The notes under the pieces: generated by a model | The model's database searches: none | What the model was told of the DNA's origin: nothing | The model's input: the letters and a program-made list of their open reading frames with translations, nothing else | Made by a program: the position numbers and the translations under genes | Source: Magnetococcales bacterium | GTDB taxonomy: Bacteria > Pseudomonadota > Magnetococcia > Magnetococcales > Magnetaquicoccaceae | DNA: 64,000 nucleotides | Direction: 5' to 3' | Assembly (NCBI GenBank): GCA_015231915.1 | Contig: JADGAR010000012.1 | Location: forward strand, 20,099 to 84,098 | Shown: in pieces, positions 12,411 to 35,267 of the stretch | Position numbering within the stretch: position 1 is the first letter of the stretch | Layout of the letters: each line of letters opens with the position of its first letter

Positions 12411-12504
12411 CTTCCGCAAGAGGGGATAAGTGGAAGGACAGTGATTGTTTTTTCTATTATCCTATAGTTATAAAAATGTTCAAGTCAGTCAGGAGTCGAA
12501 AACA

Positions 12505-12717
12505 ATGTCGCAATCGGTACGTGGTACGGTAAAATGGTTCAACAATTCGAAAGGGTTCGGCTTTCTGGCCCCGGAAGACGGCAGCGAAGATGTCTTCGTA
12601 CACTTCTCCGCCATCAAGGCCGAAGGTTTCAAATCCCTGGAGGAGGGACAAAAGGTGAAATTCGACGTGGTGCGCGGCCAAAAGGGACTGCAAGCCGCCA
12701 ACGTCGAACCGGCCTGA
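12505..12717 (+). CDS. Cold-shock protein, CspA family
   Basis: A 70-residue single cold-shock (OB-fold) domain with [15 protein letters not shown] (RNP1) and DVFVHFSAI (RNP2), the full length of the family. It binds single-stranded RNA or DNA and acts as an RNA chaperone. ATG 12505 is preceded by AGGAG at 12491; the longer ORF in the track has no support. The gene stands alone, with a perfect 12-base-pair terminator directly downstream. The aromatic residues that stack on nucleic acid (W, F, F, H, F) are all present. Confidence 0.93.
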
Positions 12718-12747
12718 TCGCCCGCCTGGAATTCGCAACCAGCCACG

Positions 12748-12785
12748 CCGCCCGAAGCCCCCGGCTTCGGGCGGTATCGTTTTTA
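12748..12785 (+). terminator. Rho-independent terminator after the cold-shock gene
   Basis: CCGCCCGAAGCC pairs perfectly with GGCTTCGGGCGG across a CCC loop, followed by TATCGTTTTT. Confidence 0.9.
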
Positions 12786-15007: not shown

Positions 15008-16089
15008 GCGGTCACGGGCAACTGGCTGCCGTGGCCATGTCCGGCGGCGTGGATTCCGCCACGGCAGCGGCGCTCCTTGTGGAGCAGGGGTACGAGGTCA
15101 TCGGCCTGACCATGCGGTTGTGGGACAGGGGGGATGCCGACAAGCCCGCTCCGGGCCGCGCCTGTTGCGCCACCGAGGACCTCCACGACGCCAGACGGGT
15201 GGCGCAGACGTTGGGCATTCCTTTTTATGTCGTCGATTTGACCGCCCAGTTCCAGGAGGCGGTGGTGGAGGATTTCCTCGCGGCGCTCGCCGCCGGTCGC
15301 ACGCCGAATCCCTGCGCCCGTTGCAACGAGGTGTTGAAATTCCACCATCTCCTCAACCGCGCCCGCCAGTTGGGGGCCGCCTTTCTGGCCACCGGCCACT
15401 ACGCCCGCATCGAGGAGGTGGAGGGCGAGCCGTGGCTGATGCGGGGTCTGGATCCGGGCAAGGATCAATCCTATTTCCTCTTCGCCACCCGCCGGGAGGA
15501 TTTGGCCAATATCCGCTTCCCCTTGGGGGCGATGCACAAGGAGGAAACCCGCGCCCGCGCCGTGGCCCTGGGGCTGCACCTGGCCCGCAAGCGGGAGAGC
15601 CAGGACCTCTGTTTCCTCCCGGACGGCGACCCCCATGCCCTGTTCGTCCACTCCGGGATGGCCGCATTGACGCTGCCCGGCCCCATCGTCGATGAAGCGG
15701 GCCGCCTGCTGGGCGAACATCGGGGGCTGGGCCATTATACCATCGGCCAACGCCAGGGCCTGGGCATCGGCGGCGCGCCCCATCCGCTCCATGTGATCGC
15801 CATCCAGCCGCAGGAAAATCGCCTGGTGGTGGGTCCGGCCTCCGCGTTGCTGCGGGAGAGCCTGGAGCTTGCGGCGCTCAACTGGCTGCCCCGGCGTCCC
15901 CTGACCGGGCCGGTCACCGTCCTGGCGCAAATCCGTTACGCCTCGCCCCCCCAGTCGGCCCTCCTCACCCCATTGGACGGTGGCCGGGCGCGCATCGATT
16001 TTCGTTTCCCCCAGCGGGCCATCGCCGCAGGGCAGGCCTGCGTCCTGTATGACAGGGACCGGCTGCTGGGGGGGGGATGGATCACCTGA
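15004..16089 (+). CDS. mnmA: tRNA-specific 2-thiouridylase MnmA
   Basis: A 361-residue enzyme that thiolates U34 of tRNA-Lys, -Glu and -Gln. It shows the PP-loop ATP motif AMSGGVDSATAAALL near the N-terminus, the first catalytic Cys in TPNPCARCNEVLKF, ATGHYARI, DQSYFLF and a second Cys in ESQDLCFLPDG, followed by the C-terminal beta-barrel (HYTIGQRQGLGIGG). Full length for the family. The 998-residue ORF in the track is an artificial upstream extension; ATG 15004 overlaps the thiO stop by four bases, so translation is coupled. Confidence 0.95.
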   Translation: MSGHGQLAAVAMSGGVDSATAAALLVEQGYEVIGLTMRLWDRGDADKPAPGRACCATEDLHDARRVAQTLGIPFYVVDLTAQFQEAVVEDFLAALAAGRTPNPCARCNEVLKFHHLLNRARQLGAAFLATGHYARIEEVEGEPWLMRGLDPGKDQSYFLFATRREDLANIRFPLGAMHKEETRARAVALGLHLARKRESQDLCFLPDGDPHALFVHSGMAALTLPGPIVDEAGRLLGEHRGLGHYTIGQRQGLGIGGAPHPLHVIAIQPQENRLVVGPASALLRESLELAALNWLPRRPLTGPVTVLAQIRYASPPQSALLTPLDGGRARIDFRFPQRAIAAGQACVLYDRDRLLGGGWIT

Positions 16090-16111: not shown

Positions 16112-16555
16112 ATGGAACTGAAACCGCTGTTGGACAAGATTCCCTTTTTCGCCCAGTTCACCGACGGGGAAAAGGAACGCATCTTGCGCATGAACTGTTA
16201 TTTCGCCAAATACAAGGCCGGGGATTTCATTATCCGGGAAGGGTCCCTGGACAACAATTCCATGTACATCATCCTCAAGGGTGGGGCGCATGTGACCCAG
16301 AACCCCTTTCCCGACACCCCCATCGCCACCCTGGAGGCCGGCACCGTGGTCGGGGAGATCTCGTTTCTCACCCTGCAGCCCAGAATCAGCAACGTCGTCG
16401 CCCGTGAACCCACCGTCTGTTTCACCATCAACGGCGCCACCATGGAGGATCTTCCCTCCCCGCTGCAACACAAAATCAAGGACCGGCTGATCGAAATCCT
16501 GGTGAAACGCCTGGAAACCATGAACCAGACCCTGGTGGATCTCATGCGGCGTTAA
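16112..16555 (+). CDS. Single-domain cyclic nucleotide-binding protein (first of tandem pair)
   Basis: A 147-residue protein that is essentially one CNB domain: IPFFAQFTDGEKERIL, GDFIIREG, then the cassette VVGEISFLTLQPRISNV with Glu and Arg kept, and a C-terminal helix KIKDRLIEILVKRLETMNQTL. No effector domain. ATG 16112 has GGGAG upstream, 22 bases after mnmA. It is clearly paralogous to the next gene (same length, same helix at the end), so it arose by tandem duplication. It may act as a regulatory subunit or as a buffer of cyclic nucleotide. Confidence 0.8.
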   Translation: MELKPLLDKIPFFAQFTDGEKERILRMNCYFAKYKAGDFIIREGSLDNNSMYIILKGGAHVTQNPFPDTPIATLEAGTVVGEISFLTLQPRISNVVAREPTVCFTINGATMEDLPSPLQHKIKDRLIEILVKRLETMNQTLVDLMRR

Positions 16556-16635
16556 GCACTCCTTTACATTCGTTGCGGGATTGGTTACCATTTTGACAGC
16601 TGCCATCCACCATCCCCTTTTTGCGGAATAACGCG

Positions 16636-17073
16636 ATGATTGCCAGACAATTGCTGGATAGTATTCCATTCTTCTGGAACTTCTCGGACGAGGAAAAGGA
16701 TCACCTCCTGAGCCTGGACAACTATTTCGAGAGTTTCAAACCCGGAGAGTTCCTCATCCACGAAGGCGCCGAGGACAATGCCCTCTACATCATTCTCAAG
16801 GGCAGGGCAGATGTCACCAAGAATTCCATGCCCAAAAAGGTCATCGCCACCCTGGAGCCGGGCACGGTCGTGGGGGAAATCTCCTTTCTCACCAATCGTC
16901 CTCGCACAACCAATGTTATTGCTGCGGAAAAGATGATCTGTTTCACCATCAATGGCCAGACCATGGCCGAGTTGAACACCCACATGCAGCACAAGATCAA
17001 GGATCAACTGATCGAGATCCTGGTGCAACGCCTGGATAACATGAATCAAACCTTGCTGGAATTGGCGCGTTGA
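16636..17073 (+). CDS. Single-domain cyclic nucleotide-binding protein (second of tandem pair)
   Basis: A 145-residue CNB protein paralogous to its neighbour: LLDSIPFFWNFSDEEKDHLL, GEFLIHEGAEDNALYIILKG, cassette VVGEISFLTNRPRTTNV and end helix KIKDQLIEILVQRLDNMNQTL. The cassette Glu and Arg are intact, so binding is expected. I chose ATG 16636; the TTG at 16621 adds five residues. The 80-base gap from the first copy could hold a separate promoter but I see no strong one. Confidence 0.8.
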   Translation: MIARQLLDSIPFFWNFSDEEKDHLLSLDNYFESFKPGEFLIHEGAEDNALYIILKGRADVTKNSMPKKVIATLEPGTVVGEISFLTNRPRTTNVIAAEKMICFTINGQTMAELNTHMQHKIKDQLIEILVQRLDNMNQTLLELAR

Positions 17074-30872: not shown

Positions 30873-31175
30873 ATGTCACTTGCCACCCATCGTCATCGCC
30901 CGCTGCTGCTCTGGGGAAGCCTCGGATTGCTTTTGGCGGGCAGTTTGATCGTCGAACAACGCGGCGACAACGAAATCCGGCCAACGGCCAGGGGGGCAGG
31001 GGAACTGCCGCCGGGATTCTCCAGTGGCACCGCAGAGATTCGTCCCGGTGACGACCCGTCACGCCATGCGTGTCGGTCCCGTGACGGCTCCCATGGCGTC
31101 AATGGCTTGCCACGCTTGTGGGACGCCTTCGGCAATTGTCCGGTCGATGGAGGCAGCGGCGATGTCGAGCGCTAG
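30873..31175 (+). CDS. Possible small exported protein, 100 aa
   Basis: ATG start with a positively charged N-terminus and a hydrophobic stretch (HRPLLLWGSLGLLLAGSLIV), followed by a polar, Gly-rich tail with no known motif. Codon third positions are GC-rich like real genes here. There is no clear ribosome-binding site, and the end overlaps the channel-fusion start by 14 bases. It might be a small membrane partner of that protein or a chance ORF. This is otherwise a 382-base spacer between divergent operons. Confidence 0.35.
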   Translation: MSLATHRHRPLLLWGSLGLLLAGSLIVEQRGDNEIRPTARGAGELPPGFSSGTAEIRPGDDPSRHACRSRDGSHGVNGLPRLWDAFGNCPVDGGSGDVER

Positions 31176-33282
31176 ATTCCTGCTGGCAACCCTGACCGTG
31201 CTCCTGGCGACGTTCCTGTTGCTGTACGCCTGGCTCTTCGCCCCGGAAAGGAAAGAGGTGCTGGCCATCGGTCTGGGCGCCCCCCTGAGCGGCCCCTTCC
31301 GGGAGATCGGACACTCCATGCGCCGGGGCGCCGAACTGGCCGTCCAGCACATCAACCAGCGCGGCGAGTTGAAAAATTTCACCCTGGAACTGGTCACCGC
31401 CGACGACAAGAGCGGTACGAACGTCAATGTCCAGGCCGAAAAAGCGGCCAGGGAACTCATGACCCGCTCCAACATCGTCGGCGTGGTGGGACACTACTTC
31501 AGCGTGCCCACCATCGACGCAGGCGATATCTATCGCATGCATTCCATACCCTTCATCACCCCTTCCGCCACCCTGCCGACCCTGACCGCCAACAACGACT
31601 GGGCCTTCGGCATCATGCCCGACGACTACTATCAGGCCCTGTTCCTGGCCAACTACGTGATCCACGGCCTCAACCGCAAAAAGATCGCCGTGATCCACGC
31701 CCGGGACCCCTATGGCAACTCCCTGAGCGAGTTCTTTGCCAGGGAGTTGCAGGTCAACAATCTCAAGCCGACCGTGTTCGTCGGCCTCGACAAGGAGAAT
31801 TTCCAGCCGGCCCTGCTCAAGGATCATATCGATGCCTTGAACCAGTCCGACATCGTCTTCCTGGCCATGAACTACGTCAACGCGGCCAAGGCGATCCAGT
31901 TTCTGCGCAAGAACAGCATGAATACCGATTTCATCGGCGCGGAAAGCCTGGGGGGCGCCCATTTCCTCCAGGAGGCGGGAATCTACGCCGAGGATGTCTA
32001 CGCCGTCACCCCTTACCTCCCCAGCCTCTTCGGCGAGGAGTCGAAACATTACCAGCACGACTACATCAAGGAGTTCCAGCGCGAGCCGGACTGGGTTTCC
32101 ACCTACTCCTACGAGGCGGTCAAGCTGCTGGCGCATGCCATCGGTCAGGTGGGCAGGGATGGCACGCGCATGCGCAATTTCATGCGCAAGATGATCTCCC
32201 GTCAGGAGGCCCTGCTTGGCATCGCCGGAGACCTCCATTTCAACGAAACCGGTTCCAGCCGGCGTCCTCTGTCGGTCGGCCAGGTCAAGCAGGGGCGTTT
32301 CATCCCGGCCCGCTTCCAGTTGACCCATGTCAAATACCAGGAACTGGCCAAGGCCAAGAGCGACGAGGAGGGGGCCGACATCTTCACCATGGAGGGGCGC
32401 TTCATGAAGCGGGCCACCGTGGTCCATACCGGCATTCACGTGGATGAGATCAAGGCCTTCAACCCGGTGGAAGGCTCTTTTGTCGCGGATTTCAATCTCT
32501 GGTTTCGCTGGGACCCGAACAGAAACAAGAACCTTGATTTCGAGATGACCTACGGCAAGGTGTTGAGCGCCAGCGTGCGGGAAAAATACTTCGACGAAAA
32601 GACCAACAGCAATTTCATCTCGTATGCCGTCTCCTCCCGCATGGTGGACGAGTTCCCCCTGCACGAGTACCCCTTCGATCAGCAGGTCCTGAAAATCCGC
32701 ATCAAGCCGAAACTCAAGACCAGCGAGGAGCTGATTCTGGTGACCGACATCGATGACGATACCCTTTTGCACCGGAAACTGGATTTCGGCTCCTGGAAGG
32801 ATATCCGGCATTTTCACTTCACCAACTCCCGGGAGTTTTTGTGGAGCTATCGCAATCCCAAGTACGACCGCAAACTCTTCACCCTCGATCACGCCCAGTA
32901 CAACTACCACGTCATCCTGGAACGGAAAGTGGCGGCCTATGTGATCACTCTGTTGCCGCTGATGATCCTGGTGGCGTCCGCCTACGTGATCTTCACCATC
33001 GACTTCGAGTGGATCTCCTCCCGCTATACCGTGGGCATCACCACCATGTTGAGCGCCATGGCCTATCACAACGTCAACAAACTGGGCGTGGGCTATCTGG
33101 TGCGGGGGGATCTCTTTTTTCTCTTTTCCTATATTCTGTTCTTCTTCACCATCCTGGAGACCTCGGTGGTGGGATATTTTCGCAAGATCAAACGGGTGGA
33201 GATCGCGCAGCGGCTGGACCTCATCTCCTTGATCCTCTACCCGATTCTGGTCGGCGTTGCATTGGTCTTTCTGCTGAGGTGA
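31162..33282 (+). CDS. Periplasmic binding protein / pentameric ligand-gated ion channel fusion
   Basis: A 706-residue protein. A signal anchor (residues 6-25) precedes a type I periplasmic-binding domain at about 33-390, of the Leu/Ile/Val-binding family (GAPLSGPFREIGHSMRRGAE, VGVVGHYFSVPTIDAGDIY, FITPSATLPTLT). Residues 418-587 are a Cys-loop-receptor-like extracellular beta-sandwich, with NLWFRW and the pro-loop EFPLHEYPFDQQ. Four membrane helices follow: M1 590-613, M2 618-640 (SSRYTVGITTMLSAMAYHNV), M3 648-674 and M4 684-705. This predicts a channel opened by a small molecule such as an amino acid. ATG 31162 has GGAGG eight bases upstream; earlier starts lack a site. The chemoreceptor-like gene follows after five bases. 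Confidence 0.88.
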   Translation: MSSARFLLATLTVLLATFLLLYAWLFAPERKEVLAIGLGAPLSGPFREIGHSMRRGAELAVQHINQRGELKNFTLELVTADDKSGTNVNVQAEKAARELMTRSNIVGVVGHYFSVPTIDAGDIYRMHSIPFITPSATLPTLTANNDWAFGIMPDDYYQALFLANYVIHGLNRKKIAVIHARDPYGNSLSEFFARELQVNNLKPTVFVGLDKENFQPALLKDHIDALNQSDIVFLAMNYVNAAKAIQFLRKNSMNTDFIGAESLGGAHFLQEAGIYAEDVYAVTPYLPSLFGEESKHYQHDYIKEFQREPDWVSTYSYEAVKLLAHAIGQVGRDGTRMRNFMRKMISRQEALLGIAGDLHFNETGSSRRPLSVGQVKQGRFIPARFQLTHVKYQELAKAKSDEEGADIFTMEGRFMKRATVVHTGIHVDEIKAFNPVEGSFVADFNLWFRWDPNRNKNLDFEMTYGKVLSASVREKYFDEKTNSNFISYAVSSRMVDEFPLHEYPFDQQVLKIRIKPKLKTSEELILVTDIDDDTLLHRKLDFGSWKDIRHFHFTNSREFLWSYRNPKYDRKLFTLDHAQYNYHVILERKVAAYVITLLPLMILVASAYVIFTIDFEWISSRYTVGITTMLSAMAYHNVNKLGVGYLVRGDLFFLFSYILFFFTILETSVVGYFRKIKRVEIAQRLDLISLILYPILVGVALVFLLR

Positions 33283-33287
33283 TCGCC

Positions 33288-34974
33288 ATGTTCAAGAACA
33301 TGAAACTCGCAACCCATCTGACACTGTTCCTCATGGTCGTCGAGGCCGGGGCACTGCTGGGCGGGGGCAGCGCCTTGCGCGTGGTCCAGCGTCTGGAAAA
33401 CAGAATCACCACCCTGGATGCTCGGGATTTTCCCTTGAATCTGGCGGTTGCGGACGCCGCCCGCCAGCAGATGGATCAGGTGCTGCGCTTGAGTGAGGTG
33501 CTTTTGTATGCCCAGGTGGACGACCGGCAGAACTTCGAGATCGCCAACGACGGCTTCATTCATGCCGGCAAGCGGCTCGCCAATGTCCTGATCGAGGCAC
33601 GCCACATCACCCAGAAGGCACTGGATACCCCCGGCTCGGACGAAGAACGCAACCACCTGGAACGCATCAAGGGGGTGATGGGAGAGTTGGAGAAAATCCA
33701 TGGCGGCTATGAGCACCTTGCCGGCATCATCATTCGCGGACAGTTCAAATACCGTTTTCTGACCAAGGCCGGGCTGATCACCGGAACCGCCACCCAGAGC
33801 CAGGGCGAAGCGGAACGGGAGTATCGCGAGGAGTTGAACAAGACCATCTCCAACCTGGATGACGAAACCAAGCGTATGGAGAATAAACTCAAGGAGGCCT
33901 ATCATCTCACCAAGGAGTTGCTGCGCAACCTGACCGAACAGGCCGGCCAGGAAAAAAAGATGGCATGGATCCTCTTTCTGCTCTGTGGGGGGGGGGGCTT
34001 TGGTGGCCGGAGTGGCCTTGCTCCTGGTCGTGAACCGCATCCATGGCATCCGATTCCGGGAGTTGCAAAACGCCATTCGTCAGCGGGCGCTGCCCTTCGG
34101 AGAGAAGGCGGAATCCCTGCGCAAGACCGCGCAACGCCTGGATCACTCCTTGAGCCATCAGGCGGAATCCAGTCAGCAACTGGCCGAAACCATGCAACAT
34201 GCGCACAACGGTCTGACCACCATGGAGGAACTGGCCGCCACAACGGTCAGGAGTGCCGCAGAGATCCGAACGGCGATGGAGGGGAACGCTCAAGGGTTGA
34301 CGGACGCGGATCGTGTGCTGCGGGAGTTCGGCGAGGCCGCGCGCCGTTCCATGGCGGATGGAGAACGCATCGACAAGAGTGTGGCGCAACTGGGCGGGTA
34401 CGTCATGCGGCTGAACCTGCTGGCCACCAGCGCCAGCGTGGAGGCCACCCGCACCGAGGGCAAGCGCGGGTTTGCCATCTTCACCGACGAGATCAAGGAG
34501 ATCGCCCAAAAGGCGCAGGGATTGGTCGATGAGATCGGAGAACGCTCCTCTGGTTTGCTCAAGGATCTGCTGGCGAGCCGGACCGCCATGGAGCAGGCCG
34601 GGGGGACCCTGCGGGACATCGCCGCCGTTGCGACCCGTTTGCAAGGGGTCGCCGGGGAAAAGCGGGATGCCTCGCGGCAACTGGGTGTTCTGGTGGAGTC
34701 GGTGCGTTCCGACGCGAGCGGATTGCACGAACTGTTTGCCGCCTACTCCCGACTGCTGCTCGACAACGCGGGAGCCTGTCGTCAATTCCGGGAACAAACC
34801 GAGGCCATCGAGACGCTCCTCCAGGAAATCGGCGCCCTGATGGAGGATCGCCGGACGCAGCAGGAGCGCAGGAGCAGACCCGTGGAACCCTCTCTGCCCG
34901 CACCCCGCGCCCCATTCACCGGAGGGGACCTCAAGGTGGAGGGTGGCGTCCTGAAACTGGAAAGGAAAGGATGA
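33288..34974 (+). CDS. Chemoreceptor-like (MCP) protein, frame broken at an 11-G tract
   Basis: The reading frame from ATG 33288 gives a first membrane helix (HLTLFLMVVEAGALLGGGSAL), a helical periplasmic domain and the start of a second membrane helix (KKMAWILFLLC), then shifts at G11 (33987-33997). The frame that begins at 33985 continues as ALVAGVALLLVVNRI, a linker and a degenerate MCP signalling hairpin (RLNLLATSASVEATRTEGKR, FAIFTDEIKEIAQKA). With ten Gs, one 561-residue protein results; as given, the first frame ends at 34532 as noise. Either a sequencing error or a phase-variable gene. It lies between the channel fusion and the 2Fe-2S protein. Confidence 0.75.
33987..33997 (+). repeat. 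Homopolymer tract of 11 G inside the chemoreceptor-like gene
   Basis: Eleven consecutive G between TGT and CTTT, within the codons of the second membrane helix. Loss of one G restores the frame; gain of two would as well. Confidence 0.95.
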
Positions 34975-35267
34975 TGGAGCACAAGCCGGTCACGGTGGTT
35001 GCGTGCATCAAGGAGCGCGTTGCAGGGTCTTCCTGTGCCGAACGGGGAGGGGTGGCCCTGGCGGATGCCGTGGAGCAGGAACTGGCGCGCCAGGGCCTGC
35101 CGATCGGCGTCAAGCGGATCCTCTGTCTGGGGCAGTGCGAACAGGGTCCGAACCTGCGCATTGCGCCCGGAGGGGCCTTTTTCCATCGGATGACCATGGA
35201 TCGGCTCGGCGAGGTGGTGGAAGCGGCGCGAGCGGCGTATGAAACCGCCCGGGATCAGGCGCCCTGA
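34971..35267 (+). CDS. Thioredoxin-like [2Fe-2S] ferredoxin-domain protein
   Basis: A 98-residue protein with cysteines spaced as in the thioredoxin-like 2Fe-2S group: VACIKERVAGSSCAERGG and ILCLGQCEQGPNLRI, followed by a helix. It would carry one 2Fe-2S cluster and act in electron transfer or sensing. The ATG overlaps the stop of the chemoreceptor-like gene (ATGATGG with TGA inside), so it is translated together with it. The 3' end overlaps the convergent hypothetical gene by 13 bases. Confidence 0.75.
   Translation: MMEHKPVTVVACIKERVAGSSCAERGGVALADAVEQELARQGLPIGVKRILCLGQCEQGPNLRIAPGGAFFHRMTMDRLGEVVEAARAAYETARDQAP

Follow-up and report, generated by a model that had tools for sequence, protein, structure and literature searches.

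A chemoreceptor-like gene of a Magnetococcales bacterium is thrown out of frame by eleven consecutive G inside its second membrane helix. The explanation that we favour, with about even confidence, is that this run was born by chance, is private to the lineage and recently slipped by one base, in a receptor gene that is otherwise intact and selectively maintained. The analysis was centred on a stretch of 64 kb, here called the window, from a 133-contig draft genome of 4.02 Mb. The locus matters more than the tract, whose own interest is low to moderate: the receptor gene forms a pair with a channel gene, and this pair merits its own study.

Results

The G run and the frame break

The run of eleven G, on the forward strand, is the longest homopolymer in the window, with the next longest having nine bases. 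The frame starting with the ATG at 33288 is open through the run and is then read out of the receptor frame up to a stop at 34530-34532, giving a product of 414 aa, and the downstream frame is open up to the stop at 34972-34974. With one base less in the run, or two more, the two frames fuse into a receptor-like gene of 561 codons. This is a slippage-prone repeat positioned in such a way that a length change of one unit switches the frame, and at eleven G it is one base off. Placed by alignment to the 562-aa gene of the sister genome WMHbin3 (locus L031), the run lies within the second hydrophobic helix, ILFLLCSGVALVAGVALLL, whose Kyte-Doolittle mean of 2.78 is the maximum of the protein, and it is the sole single-base gap inside the receptor gene.

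An earlier note on this DNA had claimed that the tract throws a chemoreceptor-like gene out of frame, that it falls within the second membrane helix, and that matching protein, periplasmic before the tract and signalling after it, is found on both sides. All three claims are confirmed; the identity to the sister is 93% before the run and 85% after it. Scaled from the genome figure given below, about 0.1-0.2 G/C runs of at least 11 bases are expected per 64 kb; a run of this kind is mildly unusual for 64 kb and not for a 4.02-Mb genome. It is the clean switch of frame, flanked on both sides by conserved protein, that goes beyond chance.

Table 1. Features of the receptor locus and two further features of the window (positions are those of the window).
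Feature	Position	Strand	Basis
PBP-I domain and Cys-loop-type (pentameric ligand-gated) channel fusion gene, upstream	31162..33282	+	PF13458, LGIC_1, PDB matches
Chemoreceptor-like gene, 5' part: helix 1, periplasmic helical region, start of helix 2	33288..33986	+	93% identical to sister; dN/dS 0.10
G run of eleven, breaks frame inside second membrane helix	33987..33997	+	sequence; alignment to sister locus L031
Chemoreceptor-like gene, 3' part: remainder of helix 2, cytoplasmic MCP-like signalling hairpin, next frame	33985..34974	+	MCPsignal PF00015; 85% identical to sister; dN/dS about 0.2
Small thioredoxin-like [2Fe-2S] protein gene	34971..35267	+	PF01257, E 0.0019, below cut-off, weak assignment
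Rfam cspA thermoregulator match	12452..12777		84.3 bits (gathering score 78)
Neighbouring pair of similar ORFs, their DNA about 71% identical, with putative cyclic-nucleotide-binding-type regulatory domains	16116..17073		domains named by eye

A 9-G run at 16068 was considered as a second frameshift and rejected: it lies where an MnmA-like gene (named by eye) ends in ...LLGGGWIT, and the change of frame there is a gene boundary.

The receptor gene and its neighbours

As in methyl-accepting chemotaxis proteins (MCPs), two membrane helices of the receptor flank a periplasmic helical region, and a cytoplasmic helical hairpin carries an MCP-like tip (NLLATSASVEATR...RGFAIFTDEIKEIAQ); in the intact sister protein, hydropathy peaks at residues 7 and 228. 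Unlike typical MCPs, it shows a diverged tip sequence, no HAMP domain by Pfam and an MCPsignal (PF00015) score slightly under the curated cut-off of 34.6 bits, namely 33.5 bits (E 4.7e-8) for the 3' part in the window and 24-34 bits for the intact relatives. The start of the [2Fe-2S] protein gene overlaps the receptor stop (ATGA); among the loci of the relatives, this gene was found beside the receptor in the sister only.

The upstream channel gene stops 5 bases before the receptor start. It encodes an N-terminal type-I periplasmic binding (PBP-I) domain of the amino-acid-binding type (PF13458 at residues 33-376) followed by the ligand-binding and four-helix domains of a channel of the neurotransmitter-receptor type (LGIC_1 at residues 497-693, with 1.1e-17 and 64.4 bits, far under the model's own cut-off of 500), and its PDB matches were to leucine-binding proteins and GABA-A receptors. 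Channel and receptor genes are adjacent in every comparable Magnetococcales locus, meaning any that has a close homologue of at least one of the two genes and sufficient contig on the relevant side; the loci considered were the window (31162-34974), L031, L034-L049, L054-L055 and L151-L165. The pair was missing from nine of the ten other genomes of the same genus that were searched, several of them incomplete, and no homologue of the receptor was found within about 1.5 kb of more distant channels in the phylum.

Relatives and selection

The nearest genome with the receptor gene is that of Magnetococcales bacterium WMHbin3, which falls into the same genus by genome search and has been treated as belonging to Ca. 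Magnetaquicoccaceae, whose members are magnetotactic cocci (PMC6783814). Its kinship to the window's own organism suggests that the latter may be magnetotactic as well. The WMHbin3 receptor gene is uninterrupted and has TCGGGCGTGGCG at the site of the G run. All 18 further receptor homologues from the order Magnetococcales are uninterrupted too, with no homopolymer longer than eight bases anywhere in the gene, and none of the 19 homologues (WMHbin3 and these 18) has a G run in the second helix. Among the genomes compared, of which one species represents the close relatives, the run is private to the source genome.

Against the sister, dN/dS was 0.10 for the part that precedes the run and about 0.2 for the part that follows it; being pairwise, these values average over the window and sister lineages. 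Within the 561 codons, no other stop or frameshift was found. Because both halves look selectively maintained, the frame break is probably recent or not real, and a long-standing break of the receptor gene is, judged from these comparisons, unlikely. Amino-acid changes were polarised with five outgroups. After the run, nine were assigned to the window lineage and 12 to the sister lineage, with 26 unresolved, revealing no window excess; before it, the window lineage carried nine and the sister lineage one (six unresolved). Decay as a pseudogene was rejected in view of the low dN/dS of both halves and the lack of an excess of window-lineage changes after the run. The excess before the run (9 versus 1) is left unaccounted for by the slip explanation.

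Other long G/C runs in the genome

Markov models of orders 3-5, fitted to the 64-kb window, predict about 24-26 interior G/C runs of at least 10 bases for the genome, while only 10 were seen. For runs of at least 11, three were seen versus about 7 (Markov) to 12 (independent bases) expected in the 4.02 Mb. Long G runs are not enriched genome-wide, the interior runs staying below expectation. Runs of at least 10 were located in rpsC, cheD, a LysM/M23 peptidase gene, a DUF1156 methyltransferase gene and an ETF-QO homologue, in ssb, where the DDDIPF tail stays in frame, in an H-type lectin ORF (11 G), by the start of a dihydrouridine synthase ORF and opposite a GTPase-like ORF, in a CRISPR-like repeat array (12 bases), and in the receptor gene itself. 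The array (L118:2400-4400, corresponding to G000:C122:38552-40552) consists of the repeat GTTTCAATCCGCGCCCCCGCGCGGGGGGCGAC with a spacing of about 66 bp; its copies degenerate toward the low-coordinate end, one of them carrying a 12-C run that replaces CCGCGCCCCC.

Seven further coding runs of 10-11 G/C allowed comparison with a relative (six with the sister, one with another congener). All of them, an 11-G run at locus L114 included, are in frame, a result that is still compatible with a per-run error rate as high as about a third. A systematic assembly error at G runs was rejected as a general rule on these grounds, and the assembly appears, as a rule, to be correct at runs of such length. 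The 10-G run of cheD (L111:2999-3008; sister locus L216) has the same length and frame in both genomes, which differ by about 6% there, making it a useful control for slippage studies. We also considered that interrupted GC-rich sequence might have been "smeared" into pure G, as hinted at by a single odd CRISPR repeat and by ribosomal protein S3, which has a glycine where alanine was expected; this idea is weakened by the sister S3, which is identical in protein, and by the cheD run, which is identical in DNA. Across the roughly 41 kb that align with the sister, no further difference in G/C-run length breaks a conserved gene. Long G runs in this genome are ordinary by-products of GC-rich coding. 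Poly-G stretches of 10-24 bases, possibly sequencing or assembly artefacts, were also noticed at the contig ends of G000:C7, C38 and C132.

Discussion

Replication slippage at a G run of such length adds or removes single bases, reversibly. According to the explanation that we favour, the run would have arisen by chance in helix 2 of the receptor gene, in this lineage only, and would recently have slipped by one base in the sampled population. Midway through helix 2, ribosomes would then leave the receptor frame; they would terminate at 34532, yielding 414 aa without the signalling hairpin and a cell that lacks this receptor. Translational coupling of the overlapping downstream gene could be lost, and termination about 440 bases earlier may reduce translation of that gene. 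Loss of the receptor seems tolerable because the module is missing from most of the other genomes of the genus, several of which are incomplete, and reversion by the same slippage would be possible in principle. We infer that the extra base is truly in the DNA, that the slip is recent and that the cell is affected in this way. There is no sign of the run being kept as a switch.

The main competitor of a recent slip is an error of consensus length, in which the true run is ten G long, an intact gene encodes 561 aa and a base was added by assembly or basecalling. We consider this possible, if rather less probable than a slip. In its favour, the genome is a 133-contig draft with poly-G at several contig ends, the receptor gene has no other lesion, only one run is affected and homopolymers are prone to sequencing error (PMC8808543). 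On the other side stand the seven other coding runs found in frame and the report that spurious Illumina indels arise especially in tracts longer than 14 bases (PMC8808543), although the platform used here may not be Illumina. The earlier note had left the choice between such an error and a phase variant caught in the off state. This either/or omits the simplest biological reading, that a G run born by chance recently underwent a slippage mutation. The factual core of the note, a slip site that breaks the frame, stands, and the off/on arithmetic of eleven G inside an ORF, a classic slippage site, fits a contingency locus whose run is maintained since switching of the receptor is useful; poly-G tracts are also known to control genes in other bacteria (PMC3373638). 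Such an evolved switch is nevertheless unlikely, as the run occurs in none of the relatives, long G runs are not enriched in the genome, and similar runs are in frame in housekeeping genes, with rpsC, ssb and cheD among their sites and switching senseless for at least rpsC and ssb. That the PBP-domain Cys-loop channel and its partner chemoreceptor form a two-gene unit switched by slippage in helix 2 of the receptor is quite unlikely as well. A scan for phase variation would flag this run; set against the relatives and against the genome's other G runs, the flag would probably be a false alarm.

Permanent loss of the receptor in this lineage, as a fixed pseudogene, would fit the absence of the module from most same-genus genomes searched and the mild surplus of changes assigned to the window lineage ahead of the run. 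It is very improbable in the light of 561 codons without another stop or frameshift and of a dN/dS that is low in both parts. Long homopolymers can also slip during transcription, and slippage of RNA polymerase or of the ribosome at the run might yield some full-length receptor despite the eleven G. We give this hardly any credence, since the run is conserved in no relative and the RNA structure at the site is not unusual (z-score -0.24), a value on which a structured recoding signal was rejected.

The poly-G phase-variable genes of Campylobacter and Neisseria, and the poly-G repeats of Treponema pallidum (PMC3373638), carry about 8-12 G in a row, either within the gene or ahead of it, and one-base changes in the length of this run turn the gene on and off through the frame. 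The receptor gene shares the G run, the one-base change and the dependence on frame. Unlike those genes, its run is present in one genome only, without genome-wide enrichment, and is known here from a single consensus sequence.

For the channel, the closest comparison is the account of Tasneem et al. 2004 (PMC549065), which, in the part considered here, describes PBP-I-channel fusions for Magnetospirillum and Bradyrhizobium, reports channel neighbours of the PBP-II, Cache and Na+/H+ symporter type and proposes, from domain context, that bacterial Cys-loop channels are chemotaxis receptors. The upstream gene of our locus shows the same PBP-I plus channel architecture. Unlike the channels described there, the Magnetococcales channel is paired with an MCP-like gene, a partner absent from that part of their account. 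No report of a channel-MCP gene pair was found in the limited library searched, which is weak evidence of novelty. Judged from gene order, the conserved pairing supports the 2004 proposal that bacterial Cys-loop channels may serve chemotaxis, and it makes this idea testable in two defined genes.
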